From assembly GCA_030154225.1 (NCBI GenBank), contig JASKKI010000012.1, positions 1 through 45,509 of the forward strand: DNA of 45,509 nucleotides, read 5' to 3'. The notes under the pieces are model-generated. The model saw only the letters and a list, made by a program, of their open reading frames with translations. It made no database searches and was not told the DNA's origin. The stretch comes from Clostridia bacterium (lineage in GTDB: Bacteria; Bacillota; Peptococcia; Peptococcales; BICA1-8). Below, in pieces: positions 2,523-8,512 of this stretch. Both the position numbers and the translations under genes were made by a program. Numbering within the stretch: the stretch's first letter is position 1; the number at the start of each line of letters is the position of its first letter.

Positions 2523-3500
2523 TTAAGCAACCATTTCATGACCAGTAATTTGGCCGTTCGTAATTGATTTATAAAATTCATTAGGAGCCAGATAATTGAT
2601 GCTACTATGTCTGCGCCTGTTGTTGTAATAATCTATATATTCGCTAACTATCTGATAAACTTCAGCAAAATCAGCAAATTCGTTACGTTTATAGCATTCA
2701 TCCTCCAAGATAGCGTGGAATGATTCTATGTATGCGTTTATATTAGGTGTTTTCACAGGAATTCTTTCATGTTCAATATCCCAGGTATTGCAAGTTTCTT
2801 TAAACAGCTTAGAAATAAATTGAGAACCATTATCTGTTCTTATAACAGGCAACTTCATGCCAGGGGCTAAGCCTCGCTTTTTGAGGGCATTTATGAGTAC
2901 CCTGCAAGCATCTTTTGCTGTAGCGCTTAAACCTATATGATAACCAACTATAGATCTGTCAAACACAGCTATAGCTGAAAGTTGAAAGAAAAATCGCCCA
3001 GTACCTGTAATATAACCGTATTTGACGTCCATCTGCCAAAGTTGGTTGGGACTTGTTACTTTCTCTCTCTTAGCTAGTTTTCTTGGCGTTTGGAATTTAT
3101 TTTTCGCTGAGGACGCAAAATATTCAGTTCCTTGCAAAGTCTGTATACCTTTTTGTAATTTATTATTAAATCATAATCCTCCTGTAGGCATATGGTTAGT
3201 TTCCGGTAACCATAAGGTAATCCGTCGCCTTCTATCAGTTCGTAAAGGCATTCATTGATTTTTTCATCTGGTATTTTTTCTCCTTTTTTATTCAGAGAAT
3301 ATCCTGGTATTTCACGTCCAACCTGTTTTTTTGTGGGTATCTTATTCTCTTTATGCCTTTTACTACTTTCTTTTTCAATGTAATAATAATAGGTGGAAGC
3401 AGCTAGGCCGATAGAGTTGAGAACAATATTTGTATTGTATCCCTTTTTTATCCACCTTTTTGCAATGGCAACTCTATCGGCTACCGAGGGTTTTTTTAAA
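2523..3500 (-). pseudogene. IS3-family transposase OrfB (frameshifted)
   Basis: DDE transposase catalysing cut-and-copy of the element. The longest open piece (2523-3137) carries all three catalytic acidic residues: D in WQMDVKYG, D in RTDNGSQF and E in NAYIESFHAILEDE, followed by the usual NNRRRHSSINYLAPNEFY ending. The N-terminal part lies in another frame above 3110 (for example YELIEGDGLPYGYRKL, the HTH_21-type region). The two join if one A is restored in the run CGAAAAAT near 3110. The true OrfB would begin near 3500, at the overlap with OrfA. As written the gene cannot make a full-length transposase. Confidence 0.85.
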
Positions 3501-3793
3501 GTCCCTCAATTCTCGTAAAATTGCCAGCCCCAATTCTTTATCAGCAAGGAGACGCTTTAATCTGTCGTTTTCAGTACTTATTTCTTTAAGTTGTTTTTCC
3601 ATAGCTTTATAGCGAGCATCTTTGGCTTTTGGCAGAGGTTTAACTGAGCCTCTTTGACGTTGTTTTTAACCCATGTATGGATGGTATTGGGAGATATTTC
3701 ATGTCTCCGGGCTGCTAAAGCTACATTCCCTGTTTTCTGACATTCTTTTAAGATTTGTTCTTTGAACTCATCACTATACTGTCTTTTAGTCAT
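3474..3793 (-). pseudogene. IS3-family transposase OrfA (frameshifted)
   Basis: HTH_Tnp_1-type DNA-binding subunit. The start MTKRQYSDEFKEQILKEC and the helix-turn-helix ALAARRHEISPNTIHTWVK are clear. After WVK the frame breaks at GGTTAAAAACAAC. Restoring one A recovers KQRQRGSVKPLPKAKDARY and then a leucine-zipper-like stretch EKQLKEISTENDRLKRLLAD, typical of IS150-group OrfA, ending at 3474. The track ORF (3578-3793) is therefore only the front part plus an out-of-frame tail. Confidence 0.8.
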
Positions 3794-3841
3794 TTTTTTT
3801 TATCCCCTGTTAATTCTAATTCTAACACATACAAATGTTTA

Positions 3842-4091
3842 CTCCAAAGATCCTAGGGGGCTATATAGTTCACAAGTAAAAGTAACTGCCTACTTAGATG
3901 TTTTAGTTCATTTAGAAGCTGGTCAAAACCAGATTCCTTTATTTTGCTATACATATAATCAATTAGGTACAAATAGTAATGAAGTTGTGAATTTTGCAGG
4001 TGAACATATAGGACAAACATCAAGTAATTGTTACCGACAAGTAGCGGACGCAGGGATTGCTGCATGGAGAGTGATGGTGAACAATAGATGA
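3842..4091 (+). pseudogene. Truncated gene of unknown function upstream of the kinase
   Basis: I do not recognise this protein. The frame that ends at 4091 codes for about 80 residues (VKVTAYLDVLVHLEAGQNQ ... AGIAAWRVMVNNR); the upstream part of the track ORF lies inside the insertion sequence, so the N-terminus has been lost or replaced. The stop codon overlaps the kinase start (ATGA at 4088-4091), a tight coupling that suggests the two proteins worked together, perhaps as sensor or substrate with kinase. The remaining piece has no recognised motif. Base use is AT-rich like the kinase gene. Confidence 0.6.
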
Positions 4092-5161
4092 ACCTTAATT
4101 TACAACCTGGTCAGAATATATACAAATACTTGCTAAAAAGAAAATTAGGTAATGGACAATTTGGGCAAGTATGGTTATCAACAGATACTTCAATCAATAA
4201 AGAAGTGGCATTAAAAATTTTAGATGATCCATATGAAACAGTAGCAAATTTATTAGAAGAAGCCAGGATTGAAAATAAATTAAATCATCAAAATCTACTT
4301 AAAATATGTTATGCTGATGTAGTAAAGGTTGAAGAAAAATTAATAACTCTTATTTCTCAAGAATACCACCCAAATGGTTATTTAGTAAATAGGTTGAATA
4401 ATTTTAATTTTTTGCCATTACCAGAAGTAATAAAATATTTATGTGACATACTTTGTGGTCTAGAATATCTCCACCATCAAGGATTTTTTCATAATGACAT
4501 AAAACCTTCTAACATTTTAATTGGTAATAATAGTGAGGGTATTCTTGCTGATTATGGTATTACAGGCTTTTCTCCTGATGGAGGTTCTATAACTCCTAAA
4601 AGTTCATATATTATTCATCAAGCTCCTGAAACATCAATGGAAAAACCAATTATAAATATTGCAACTGATATTTATCAAGTAGGTGTTACAGCATTTTGAT
4701 TGCTTAATGGTATTAGTTTTGTTTCGAATGATTTCGATAATTTTGGTAAAGAAATATTTCAAAAGAAAAAAGCACAAGGACGTATCCCAAATAAAGCTCA
4801 ATATTAACCTTTTGTTCCTATAACTATAAAACAAATAGTTAATAAAGCTTTGAAAGTAGACCCCAGAGTCCGGTGTAATTCACCTTTAGAAATGAGAAGA
4901 GCCCTAGAAAGATGTACTTATCCTGGTTATTGGACAACAGACGAAAGCTGCAATTTGATAGGTGTAGGTACTAAATATACTTATAGATTTGAAAAAATTC
5001 CTAGACCTCAAAACTTATTTAATGTCAATTGTTATAAACAAAACAGTATTTCAAAGAGAGAAACAAGGATACTGGCTTATTGTAATAAAAATTTATCTGT
5101 TAAAGAAGCTAATAAATTAATTTCCCAGTTTTGTGATTGGGTGGTAAACAATGCAGAATAA
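4088..5161 (+). pseudogene. Ser/Thr protein kinase (Hanks type), inactivated by two in-frame stops
   Basis: A single frame of 358 codons reads through a complete eukaryotic-like kinase domain but is interrupted by TGA (4697-4699) and TAA (4805-4807). Visible are the glycine loop GNGQFGQVW, the ATP-binding lysine in EVALKIL, catalytic loop HNDIKPSNIL (HRD becomes HND, with D, K and N present), DYG for DFG, and the APE-like QAPET. The first stop falls after the activation segment and loses the C-lobe helices. Beyond the second stop the frame resumes at KQIVNKALKVDPRVRCNSPL, typical of the end of the kinase domain, then a C-terminal region of about 85 aa without a recognised domain. Both stops are explained by single-base changes. 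The track reports it as two separate ORFs. Confidence 0.85.
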
Positions 5162-5172
5162 TAACTCACTTC

Positions 5173-5249
5173 ATCTAACACGGGGTTAGCGACATCGTGA
5201 GCATTCATCTTGGGACAAGCTCGACATCGCTAACCCCTTAACGTTATAC
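5173..5249 (+). other. attC-like imperfect palindrome (putative integron cassette recombination site)
   Basis: It begins 12 bases after the kinase frame ends. The left box ATCTAAC fits RYYYAAC (5173-5179) and the right box GTTATAC (5243-5249) resembles GTTRRRY with one deviation. Between them GGGGTTAGCGA (5182-5192) pairs perfectly with TCGCTAACCCC (5227-5237), and the stem continues as TCG/AGC pairs with extra unpaired bases on one arm. Total length is 77 bp, within the usual attC range. A gene immediately followed by such a site is the cassette layout. No integrase gene is in the window, and a simple hairpin remains possible. Confidence 0.4.
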
Positions 5250-5253
5250 GCAA

Positions 5254-5268
5254 TTCGTTCATGGCGCC
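5254..5268 (+). repeat. Left arm of a perfect 15-bp inverted repeat around the flavoprotein gene
   Basis: TTCGTTCATGGCGCC here is the exact reverse complement of the sequence at 7373-7387. It lies 5 bases after the attC-like palindrome and 32 bases before the flavoprotein start. The arms enclose the whole gene. Confidence 0.8.
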
Positions 5269-5300
5269 AAAGAAATTTAAATTTAAAGGAGATGTAGAAA

Positions 5301-7382
5301 ATGGAGGGAAATATGAAAAATAATAAAAGAAAAATACCTGGTATGCTTTACATACTTGTTTCCTTTATTCCATGGATTTTTTACTGGGTATTGTGTGGTA
5401 TGGGAAACAGGTTAGGAGTGATTATTCCCTTTGTAATTTCTTTAATTCTCATAATCCCTCAAATCCGCAAAAGAGATTTCAATCTGATGGACGTTACTTC
5501 CGTTCTCTATTTTAGCATAGCTATTATTGGTACATTTACCTTCAACCTAAACATATTTGTCGAAAATAGCGGTTTTATTGGCTATTTTGTTTTATTTCTA
5601 ATGGCACTAATTTCCGTAATCATCAAGCAACCTTACACCCTTCAGGTTTCGAAAAGGGATTATCCAGAAATCTATTGGAAGGAAAAATCATTTCTGGCTA
5701 TCAACAACATAATTACAGGGGTCTGGACGGTAGTATTCATAGCAAATGCAACTATATTTTTACTTTTCGGTATGCCTCTTAGAATAATCCTTTCAAACAA
5801 TCTAATTGCTCTTGGTATAGTATTCTCAATCCTTTTCCCTTTGAAAGCACCTGCTTACTTCGCTTCAAGGGAATTTAAGAAGTATGACTGGAGTGTTAAG
5901 GTAACTTCCCAAAATCCTAAGGGAGAAAACGAATACGATGTCATCATCGTTGGCTCTGGCATAGGGGGATTAACCTGCGGTGCTTTACTTTCGAAAAGAG
6001 GTTATAAGGTTTTGGTTTTAGAGCAACATTATCAGGTTGGAGGTTATTGCTCTTCTTTTAAGAGGAAAGATTTTGTCTTTAATACTGGTGTGGAAAACGT
6101 AAGCGGATTATGGGAAAAAGGGCCTATCAGCTATCTCCTTAAAGAGCTTGGACTCAAAAAGGATGAGCTTTTCGTAAAGAATAGAATGAGATACATCTTT
6201 AAGAAAAAGGAAATTGATGCCAATAACTTAGAGGAGTTCATAAAAGTCCTCTCAGATATGTTTCCATATGAGAAGGAAAACATTCGTGCCTTCTTTGATG
6301 AGGCTAAAAAGGCTTATGAAGAATGCTATAAAGATGCTGAGATCTATGGCACACCTTTACCTGCTGAACTCATTGTTAAAGTCTTTGGTGAAAGAAAGCT
6401 TTTAGATTACCCAAGGGAGCATCCTCACTTCTATAATTGGATGGACAAGGCGTATAAGCAAAAGCTTGATGAATACTTCACCAATGAGGACTTAAAGACT
6501 TTACTCTGTGCTTTGTTGGGTTACGTAGGAACAGAGCCGGAGAAAACTTCCGCAAGCAGTGCACTTACTGCGGTTATCGCTTATTATCTCCACGGTGGGT
6601 ATTTTCCGAGGGGAGGGGCTCAGAGGTTTGCAGATAGCTTAAAGGAAGTTATCGAAAGTCATGGTGGAAAGGTTTTGGTTCATCACAAAGCTGATAGGAT
6701 ATTGGTAAGAGAGGGTAAAGTTGAGGGAGTGAGAGTTAATGATAAGATTTTTAGAAGTCGGATTGTGGTGGCGAATGCAAACGCTAAAACCACATTTCTG
6801 GAGCTCGTTGGAGAGGAGAATTTAGATGAGAAGTTCGTTGAGTACATAAAAAGCTTAAAAATGTCTCCTTCCGTTATCATGGTGTTCTTGGGGGTTGACA
6901 TGGATTTGGCAAGTTACCCAACGATCATCGAGAATTTGGACGACGGGTATAGTATAGTCATTAACTCCAATGCTGATCTAAGCTTGGCGCCAAAAGGCAA
7001 GGCAAGTGTTACAATATTAACTGGCGACAATTACCACGATTTTTCAGAAAGAGAGGTAAAAGAGTATTTTGAAAAGAAGAAAAAGTTCACCGAAATGCTA
7101 ATTAAGAGAGCTGAAAAAGTTATCCCTAATTTGAGCAAGCATATAGTTGTTCAGGATGCAGCAACGCCAAAAACCTTTGAAAGATACACATCAATGCCAG
7201 AAGGAGCAATCTATGCTTTTGATCAGTCAATTTATACCAAGAGACCTTACTTTAAAACACCGATAAAAGGGCTATATTTAGCAAGTGCATCTACTTTCCC
7301 GGGAGGAGGAATTGAAGCAGTTGTAATCTCTGGAATAATTTGTGCAAACAATATATGTAATTGGGAGGTTGAGGCGCCATGA
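5301..7382 (+). CDS. Membrane-anchored NAD(P)/FAD-dependent oxidoreductase (CrtI / retinol saturase-like)
   Basis: A 693-residue protein in two parts. Residues 1-190 are very hydrophobic, with five or six predicted membrane helices. From about residue 210 a flavoprotein of the phytoene desaturase/all-trans-retinol 13,14-reductase superfamily follows: dinucleotide-binding motif DVIIVGSGIGGLTCGALLSKRG, LVLEQHYQVGGYCSSF, and near the C-terminus GLYLASASTFPGGGIEAVVISG, the FAD-contacting end of the family. Desaturation or saturation of an isoprenoid or lipid at the membrane is likely, but the substrate is unknown. RBS AAAGGAGA sits 8 bases before the chosen ATG; a second ATG at 5313 also has a good RBS. 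It stands alone, bracketed by inverted repeats and next to an attC-like site, so transfer is suspected. Confidence 0.75.
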   Translation: MEGNMKNNKRKIPGMLYILVSFIPWIFYWVLCGMGNRLGVIIPFVISLILIIPQIRKRDFNLMDVTSVLYFSIAIIGTFTFNLNIFVENSGFIGYFVLFLMALISVIIKQPYTLQVSKRDYPEIYWKEKSFLAINNIITGVWTVVFIANATIFLLFGMPLRIILSNNLIALGIVFSILFPLKAPAYFASREFKKYDWSVKVTSQNPKGENEYDVIIVGSGIGGLTCGALLSKRGYKVLVLEQHYQVGGYCSSFKRKDFVFNTGVENVSGLWEKGPISYLLKELGLKKDELFVKNRMRYIFKKKEIDANNLEEFIKVLSDMFPYEKENIRAFFDEAKKAYEECYKDAEIYGTPLPAELIVKVFGERKLLDYPREHPHFYNWMDKAYKQKLDEYFTNEDLKTLLCALLGYVGTEPEKTSASSALTAVIAYYLHGGYFPRGGAQRFADSLKEVIESHGGKVLVHHKADRILVREGKVEGVRVNDKIFRSRIVVANANAKTTFLELVGEENLDEKFVEYIKSLKMSPSVIMVFLGVDMDLASYPTIIENLDDGYSIVINSNADLSLAPKGKASVTILTGDNYHDFSEREVKEYFEKKKKFTEMLIKRAEKVIPNLSKHIVVQDAATPKTFERYTSMPEGAIYAFDQSIYTKRPYFKTPIKGLYLASASTFPGGGIEAVVISGIICANNICNWEVEAP

Positions 7383-7387
7383 ACGAA
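7373..7387 (-). repeat. Right arm of the 15-bp inverted repeat
   Basis: GGCGCCATGAACGAA overlaps the last codons and stop of the flavoprotein gene and is the exact reverse complement of 5254-5268. The central GGCGCC is itself palindromic. Confidence 0.8.
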
Positions 7388-7565
7388 CTCTCCGGTATCA
7401 CTCCGACCCTCTATATCAAATCTGGAAACGAAATTAATAGATAAGGTTAAAATCCAGTTAATAGAGGAATACAATAAGAGTTTTTTACCGTTGTTTGAAA
7501 ACTTAGATTATCTTTTTAGTTTTATCGATAATTTAACTTATAAAGCCGGGGCTTTTATAGCCCTT
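7388..7565. other. Short spacer with an open frame remnant and a weak hairpin
   Basis: A frame open from 7383 to a stop at 7575-7577 reads ETKLIDKVKIQLIEEYNKSF and onward but has no convincing start or RBS; it may be the tail of a lost gene. ATAAAGC/GCTTTTAT around 7540-7558 could be a weak terminator for the minus-strand terC gene that ends at 7566. Confidence 0.3.
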
Positions 7566-8330
7566 TCACCTTTCTGATGATAGGTCTTGTTTTTTAGAAT
7601 ATACCCAACCCCAAACAGCAATTGACAAAAGTACCGCCCAAAAGGTTAGTTTCCACAAGGGGGATTTAGCAAAACTGTGCGGTAAAAATGCCAGTTCCGG
7701 GTGAGATACAGTATAAATTAATAATTTTATTCCCACCCATCCGACTATAAGGAAAGCAGCAGTTTCCAATCTGGGTCTACTGTGAATGAGAGAGACAAAA
7801 AAGTTGGCCGCAAAACGCATAATCAGCAACCCTGTTAACCCACCTGCGAATATTACGAGGAACTGCCCGGTATCCAAAGAACCAATGCTTCCCCAGTTAG
7901 TGGGGGGGAGCGTAACGGCCAGGGCAACCGCTGCTAATATAGAATCTACCGCAAAGGCAATGTCCGCTAACTCAACTTTTAGTACCGTTAACCAAAAGTT
8001 TGTTTGAACCGGTACCTGTGTAGAGTGGGAATCTGTTTTCTTACCATTATGATGTCTTATCAAATGGTTTATGGCGATAAACAGTAGATAAATAGCCCCT
8101 ATAGCTTGCACCTGCCAGATGTCTACCAGGAAGGATATGACAAAGAGAGAAGCAAACCGGAACACAAATGCCCCCAGCAGGCCATAAAATAATGCTTTTT
8201 TTCTGGTCTCAGGAGGAAGATGCTTCACTAAAATGGCCAGCACTAAAGCATTGTCAGCCGCTAAAAGCCCTTCCAGCCCTACAAGAATAACAAGCACCCA
8301 TCCGTATTCTAAAAGCAAAGTAAAATCCAT
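7566..8330 (-). CDS. TerC family integral membrane protein (probable Mn2+ exporter)
   Basis: 254-residue membrane protein with about seven helices. The TerC hallmarks are GLEGLLAADNALVLAILVKHLP at the N-terminus and a second acidic membrane motif, ELADIAFAVDSILAAVAL. These charged helices (E, D, N) are the likely metal path. TerC relatives of the YkoY/MeeF type help load manganese onto or export it from the cell. The ATG at 8330 is preferred over the TTG one codon upstream because GGAGAGG lies 5 bases before it. The gene sits directly behind a Mn2+ riboswitch, which supports a manganese-relief role rather than tellurite resistance. Confidence 0.92.
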   Translation of the reverse strand: MDFTLLLEYGWVLVILVGLEGLLAADNALVLAILVKHLPPETRKKALFYGLLGAFVFRFASLFVISFLVDIWQVQAIGAIYLLFIAINHLIRHHNGKKTDSHSTQVPVQTNFWLTVLKVELADIAFAVDSILAAVALAVTLPPTNWGSIGSLDTGQFLVIFAGGLTGLLIMRFAANFFVSLIHSRPRLETAAFLIVGWVGIKLLIYTVSHPELAFLPHSFAKSPLWKLTFWAVLLSIAVWGWVYSKKQDLSSER

Positions 8331-8376
8331 CAAAACCTCTCCTTATCAAGATATGTTAGTACTTAACAAAACAAAA

Positions 8377-8411: not shown

Positions 8412-8490
8412 CGCAAGCAGCATTATGTGCTGCCAGTAAAGCCGGAGAAAAATCTCGGAATGACGACTTTACAGTAAGCTACTCCCCTTT
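8404..8490 (-). promoter_or_regulatory. yybP-ykoY manganese riboswitch aptamer
   Basis: Read on the minus strand the RNA starts AAAGGGGAGTAGC, continues AAAGTCGTCATTCCGAG and CTCCGGCTTTACTGGCAG, and closes with GCGAGACCTTT. These are the conserved P1, L1 and L3 elements of the yybP-ykoY family, whose Mn2+-sensing function is established. Its place in the terC leader is the classical context. Confidence 0.94.
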
Positions 8491-8512
8491 AGCGCGCTAT
8501 TTGATTAAGAAG

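Follow-up and report, generated by a model that had tools for sequence, protein, structure and literature searches.

An integron cassette remnant carrying a flavoprotein gene in a Clostridia bacterium: terminal arms proposed to close a second helix beside attC in the circular cassette

A single flavoprotein gene is bracketed by a perfect 15-bp inverted repeat in the 45,509-nucleotide stretch of Clostridia bacterium DNA analysed here (the window). Positions 5243-7410 are interpreted as the remnant of an integron cassette carrying this one gene, with the inverted repeat as its ends, and it is proposed that the two arms of the repeat form a second helix favoring insertion; we regard this account as likely. 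The features concerned are the following.

4088-4699, plus strand: open reading frame (ORF) of 203 aa with a protein-kinase domain (PF00069, 1.8e-28), in the upstream cassette region.
4850-5161, plus strand: ORF of 103 aa, directly before the attC site.
5173-5249, plus strand: attC site belonging to the upstream cassette (30.4 bits and E = 0.001 with covariance model R1, the site being outside the training set).
5243-5252, plus strand: cassette head GTTATACGCA, the extended R' stem of 10 nt, identical in the related loci L025, L027, L028, and L032.
5254-5268, plus strand: left arm TTCGTTCATGGCGCC, beginning at cassette base 12.
5261-5323, plus strand: short leader ORF (MAPKKF...), with its ATG inside the left arm, overlapping the start of the flavoprotein gene.
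5301-7382, plus strand: flavoprotein gene, 693 aa, an FAD-dependent oxidoreductase of the CrtI/carotenoid-isomerase (phytoene desaturase) superfamily and a membrane flavoprotein.
7373-7387, minus strand: right arm, whose sequence is the left arm's exact reverse complement; it takes in the final codons of the flavoprotein gene, stop included (TGA, 7380-7382).
7388-7410, plus strand: cassette tail remnant CTCTCCGGTATCACTCCGACCCT, 23 bases past the arm, from alignment with L025, L027, L028, L029, and L032.

The repeat itself, with the gene between its arms and the right arm at the stop codon, was confirmed as originally predicted at 5254-5268 and 7373-7387. Within the window, only two sites match the arm sequence with at most three mismatches, and these are the arms. 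A search of the genome for the 15-mer pair, as had been suggested, found the arms to be the sole exact copies in 2.68 Mb; elsewhere, the same arms recur flanking flavoprotein homologs in other phyla. Exact 15-bp inverted pairs per se number 10 in the window vs. 3.2 expected from dinucleotide shuffles, but a pair bracketing a gene as here appeared in none of 200 such shuffles. The small odds first attributed to a chance pair at both gene ends are thus supported by the shuffles as well as by the recurrence around homologs. An Rfam search gave no match at the arms. Both arms overlap coding signals, and GGCGCC is palindromic, so that part of the arm match is self-complementary; it could thus be argued that the arms match by coding coincidence, from the leader ORF (ATGGCGCC) and the C-terminus (..KAP*) alone. 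This is hardly credible considering that, on the right side, most of the outer nine bases (TTCGTTCAT/ATGAACGAA) fall beyond the gene, with conservation from phylum to phylum, that no shuffle reproduced the pair, and that arms recur in unrelated cassettes.

The attC site at 5173-5249 displays the boxes R'' (ATCTAAC), L'' (GGGGTTAGCGA), L' (TCGCTAACCCC), and R' (GTTATAC), with R'' pairing with R' and L'' with L', 11 of 11 stem positions paired, a hairpin fold z of -6.2, and an unpaired spacer near the R box. The R' box (5243-5249) doubles as the first bases of the flavoprotein cassette, which starts at the core site directly after the attC hairpin, and it fits GTTRRRY save for a T at position 5, a deviation common to most R' boxes in this attC family. 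The attC-like site that had been placed five bases from the left arm is therefore real, but the description by distance was too weak: the left arm starts at base 12 of the very cassette whose R' closes that attC. In relatives, the head GTTATACGCA pairs with TGCGTATAAC ahead of the cassette's own attC. According to the alignment with these relatives, the tail of the window copy ends after 7410, and GGGTGCGTATAAC and its own attC hairpin are missing. The 3' attC is complete in L025, L027, and L029 and reaches the contig end in L032; since it is absent from the window, the copy is considered a cassette remnant and not an intact cassette. The same cassette stands among different neighbors, both upstream and downstream flanks differing among L025, L027, L029, L032, and the window. 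As its own attC breaks off past 7410 and the genome yielded no integrase that passes the IntI cut-off, the window copy is probably immobile and, for the same reasons, its history is reconstructed from relatives.

Short ORFs similar to the leader ORF are found at the same place in L025, L027, L029, L044, and L045, and judging by this arrangement the leader may couple translation to the flavoprotein gene. In the attI1 ORF-11 type, a short reading frame just upstream could bring ribosomes to a cassette gene; here, by contrast, the short ORF lies within the cassette itself and starts inside an arm. Given that the leader ORF starts in the left arm and the stop codon lies in the right one, a helix between them would join the transcript ends, and the arms might pair in the mRNA (5' leader with stop region) so as to govern how the flavoprotein message is translated or how stable it is. 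However, the arms are missing from homologs outside cassette arrays, and unrelated genes with the same attC family show the same geometry measured from the recombination core rather than from the gene, which makes such an mRNA role improbable.

Regarding the surroundings, the kinase ORF matches mad6 (1.7e-36) and PD-T4-6 (2.7e-25) in PADLOC, its domain resembling those of anti-phage kinases, and the 103-aa ORF has no Pfam, NCBIfam, or PADLOC match. An IS3-family transposase, broken into two or more frames (2523-3800, minus strand), lies just left of the kinase cassette, which may owe the loss of its left end to this element. Downstream, a sub-threshold match to the yybP-ykoY manganese riboswitch (8415-8499, minus strand; 27.6 bits vs. 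a gathering threshold of 45) stands upstream of the gene for a membrane protein of YkoY/TerC type (7566-8333, minus strand), which is the expected position.

The identity of the cassette is given by its relatives. Homologs at 68-80% amino acid identity are found in attC arrays of Altiarchaeales, Altarchaeum, ANME-1, Caldiserica, and Thermodesulfovibrionales; relatives in this identity range, spread over five phyla, are flanked by attC sites on both sides or have one beside them, and they have the head, gene, and tail in common. With small variations, the common module of L025, L027, L028, L029, and L032 reads GTTATACGCAATTCGTTCATGGCGCC, gene, GGCGCCATGAACGAACYCTCCGC..CTCCGACCCTTACGGGTGCGTATAAC, and most of these loci stand between hairpins with the attC layout R''-L''-L'-R'; on these sequence grounds, they are integron cassette arrays with unrelated neighbors. 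An attC covariance model built from 12 attC sites detected 107 sites in 14 of the 21 homolog-bearing genomes. Because most relatives are metagenome-assembled genomes (MAGs), single contigs could be misbinned, and the strongest guard against this is a 1.39-Mb Altiarchaeales contig harboring 12 attC sites. The right arm is conserved in L025, L027, and L028 and shows one or two changes in L029 and L032. Among relatives, 22-26 of the 26 nt of the head are identical, whereas fourfold-degenerate sites are only 34-57% identical in 14 of 15 pairs. The presence of the same repeats in relatives without mobility had been named as evidence against the original prediction; the opposite was observed, i.e., relatives in attC arrays keep the arms and homologs outside arrays lack GC-containing arms, some AT-rich ones scoring 9-11 points from A/T runs alone.

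Some further observations were made on these loci. In archaea and bacteria alike, the attC loops of L025, L027, L029, and L032 contain the motif CGCCCAAAT, after which come a small inner hairpin and ACTTC; this motif may be a second recognition element. In the Altarchaeum array (L029, 5001-7082), the flavoprotein gene contains one in-frame TAA, reflecting either decay or an assembly error, and the arms are less well matched. In the non-array homolog L119 (G233, 80% identity), the sequence after the stop, GCAATGAATGACCTACTCGC, resembles a cassette tail in decay, suggesting that this homolog once belonged to a cassette.

These relatives also bear on whether the arms could delimit a transposon-like unit, as its terminal inverted repeats, or a segment able to invert, as a perfect 15-bp inverted repeat around a single gene and an IS3-family transposase fragment 2 kb upstream might suggest. 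Neither a transposase nor an invertase lies inside the repeats or in the units of relatives, the flavoprotein gene being the only large ORF inside, and no target-site duplication was retained. The candidate duplication (GGCGCC, 6 bp, in a 24-bp palindrome) was dropped given that conservation among relatives runs into GTTATACGCA and attC. In fact, conservation runs outward to GTTATACGCA, TGCGTATAAC, and the attC hairpin, the relatives' flanks past the arms are attC sequence, the gene has one orientation with respect to attC in all cassette relatives, and differing arms occupy the same position in different cassettes. A transposon or invertible segment is accordingly very improbable. The original suggestion of a small mobile unit was right in kind, as gene and arms constitute an integron gene cassette that several phyla harbor, ends included, between attC sites, while that of an invertible segment fails on the single orientation of the gene relative to arms and attC in every cassette-borne relative and on the lack of an invertase adjoining the window copy.

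The 693-aa protein has a hydrophobic N-terminal extension of about 200 aa and matches Pfam PF01593/PF13450 and PDB 4rep (3e-21), as well as TIGR02730 at 8.8e-58, which is under the equivalog cut-off. In a scan of genome contigs, 22 relatives were found, most at 62-80% identity, in archaea (Altiarchaeales, Altarchaeum, ANME-1, Methanomethylicota, Bathyarchaeota, Micrarchaeota, and Archaeoglobaceae) and bacteria (Caldiserica, Campylobacterota, Thermodesulfovibrionales, Patescibacteria, and Bacillota). The gene is sporadic among the window's own relatives: the 60 nearest genomes have substantial-length matches at only 23-34% identity, and a match at E<=1e-120 is found in 11 of 399 genomes of the host phylum, exceeding 60% identity in six, the window's own genome among them. 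The flanks of L155 and L044 match, which probably places the host and the Thermoanaerobacterales MAG containing L044 in one GTDB phylum. Viral contigs contained no homolog of the flavoprotein, and four viral matches to the pattern TATACGCAATTCGTTC were dismissed as chance hits without cassette ends. Plasmids yielded only distant homologs (<60% identity), and the attC-head DNA had no plasmid match. In the gene tree, bacteria and archaea are intermixed and few of the deep branches are strong, so neither a direction of transfer nor a single origin of the cassette form is claimed; the cassette state is scattered over the tree, which fits several losses without proving them.

Beyond the flavoprotein cassette, the arms belong to a geometry found in unrelated cassettes. 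In circular order, the elements read GGCGCCATGAACGAA, small hairpins, TGCGTATAAC, attC, GTTATACGCA, A, TTCGTTCATGGCGCC, so that the arms flank attC. A second helix of 6-17 bp would lie outside the 10-bp R''/R' stem, past one unpaired base, from cassette base 12. Consecutive attC sites were used to define 35 cassettes, and five were added later, giving 40 with two attC sites. Complementarity between a cassette's own head and tail past base 10 was 7.87 vs. 6.01 for swapped ends, a value reached in none of 5000 permutations, and with the flavoprotein cassettes removed own ends still exceeded swapped ones (p < 5e-5; 0 of 20,000 permutations). Each cassette has its own arm sequence, and the arms start exactly at cassette base 12 irrespective of that sequence; as contiguous pairing outward from the core never exceeded 10 nt in the 35 cassettes, the layout consists of a 10-bp stem, at least one unpaired base, and a second helix. 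With the five additions included and the start fixed at base 12, at least 6 bp were found in 12 of 35 unrelated cassettes (0.91 expected from swapped ends) and at least 7 bp in 7 of 35 (0.24 expected). L177, one of the additions, was obtained after the pattern had been noticed and shows an arm of 11 bp in this position. The tail-side arm is either adjacent or some 25-52 nt apart, often with a mini-hairpin insert of 27-52 nt. Array neighbors, whose head and tail meet across one attC, are unmatched (5.86, n = 14). The second helix is general in the attC family of these arrays, a generality resting on the 40 two-attC cassettes because the heads of isolated attC sites can rarely be located by 10-mer; some cassettes in the same arrays have no second helix.

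The presence of arms in some cassettes and their weakness in others, together with a geometry corresponding to an extended palindrome, would also fit a relic of cassette or attC birth (e.g., snap-back synthesis on a hairpin) that has no present role. Against this, the head of the flavoprotein cassette is near-identical between lineages that have come close to saturation at silent sites, which would not be the case for a neutral relic, although a repair process keeping the arms alike could mimic such conservation. A relic is on balance unlikely, while keeping some weight. As for the proposed second helix, the predicted folding of the bottom strand gains 1.6-17 kcal/mol in the circle relative to the array in all ten cassettes folded, and in nine of them the circle also surpasses the average for circles whose head was shuffled; the tenth, the Altarchaeum locus L029 with its mismatched arms, is equal (-29.7 vs. 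-29.5 kcal/mol for shuffled heads). These ten cassettes were chosen mostly for having arms, so the folding illustrates the effect size and is not an independent test.

Under the proposed mechanism, excision of the cassette as a circle would make its tail (right arm, small hairpins, and TGCGTATAAC), the attC hairpin, and its head (GTTATACGCA, the unpaired A, and the left arm) contiguous, and the arms would then close the second helix, 7-17 bp long, outside the 10-bp R''/R' stem. This helix would help attC to fold or to stay folded in the free circle, thereby favoring insertion, this effect on recombination being inferred. After insertion, the arms would be 2 kb apart around the gene and the neighbor's head would be mismatched; the helix would be lost and retention favored, since by this proposal the break of the second helix on insertion leaves excision not favored. 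The flavoprotein cassette of the window, having lost its own attC, would now be fixed in the chromosome. It is tentatively suggested that a dedicated, circle-only second helix, cassette-specific and starting at base 12, may act as a one-way switch toward insertion and away from excision, perhaps for a recombinase other than classical IntI, in this integron family common to anaerobic archaea and bacteria.

These cassettes resemble those of class 1 and chromosomal integrons and CALINs in having a single gene between GTTRRRY-type core sites, arrays in one orientation, and an attC hairpin with R'', L'', L', and R' in which R''/R' pairing extends to about 10 nt. Unlike in known integron cassettes, there is a second helix past the 10-bp stem and one unpaired base. 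In most cassettes, R''/R' pairing has been reported to extend over 9-11 consecutive nt (Bouvier et al., 2009, PMC2727003), which explains the inner 10 bp but not the 15-bp outer arm. In the small comparison set from outside the attC family of these arrays, nine class 1 cassettes, pairing extends by eye over about 8-12 bases, and past base 12 it stays within the swapped level. No description of such a second helix was found in the open-access literature. A study of archaeal MAGs reported attC arrays mostly without IntI, cassettes common to Archaea and Bacteria, and attC sites similar in both domains (Ghaly et al., 2022, PMC9668308); parts 1-2 of its Results mention neither outer arms nor the flavoprotein cassette. 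The present arrays are similar to the archaeal integrons as described there, being mostly without IntI and with attC sites and cassettes across both domains.

No IntI (TIGR02249) above the cut-off was found in the window's own genome, in the relatives, or in 13 homolog-bearing genomes, and an IntI with the IntI-specific insert, as in a complete integron, was not found. The recombinase near the L029 array differs from IntI as follows.

L129, 693-1754: tyrosine recombinase of 354 aa, about 3 kb before the first attC on the L029/L129 contig (Altarchaeum array).

It passes the XerA_Arch cut-off (237 vs. 220 bits), falls below that of integron integrase (220 vs. 265), and lacks the IntI-specific stretch when aligned with IntI4 (2A3V); it is therefore XerA-like. 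It also has an N-terminal extension of about 65 aa.

Cassette mobility explains the spread of one flavoprotein gene, at 60-80% protein identity, over Bacillota, Caldisericota, Nitrospirota, Patescibacteria, Altiarchaeota, ANME-1, and further groups, and the attC family is seen to pass between Archaea and Bacteria. The second helix offers a testable answer to the question of how a free circular cassette differs from an inserted one, and thereby bears on cassette insertion and retention. Finally, where attC has decayed, as in the window, the arms could serve to locate the ends of a cassette.
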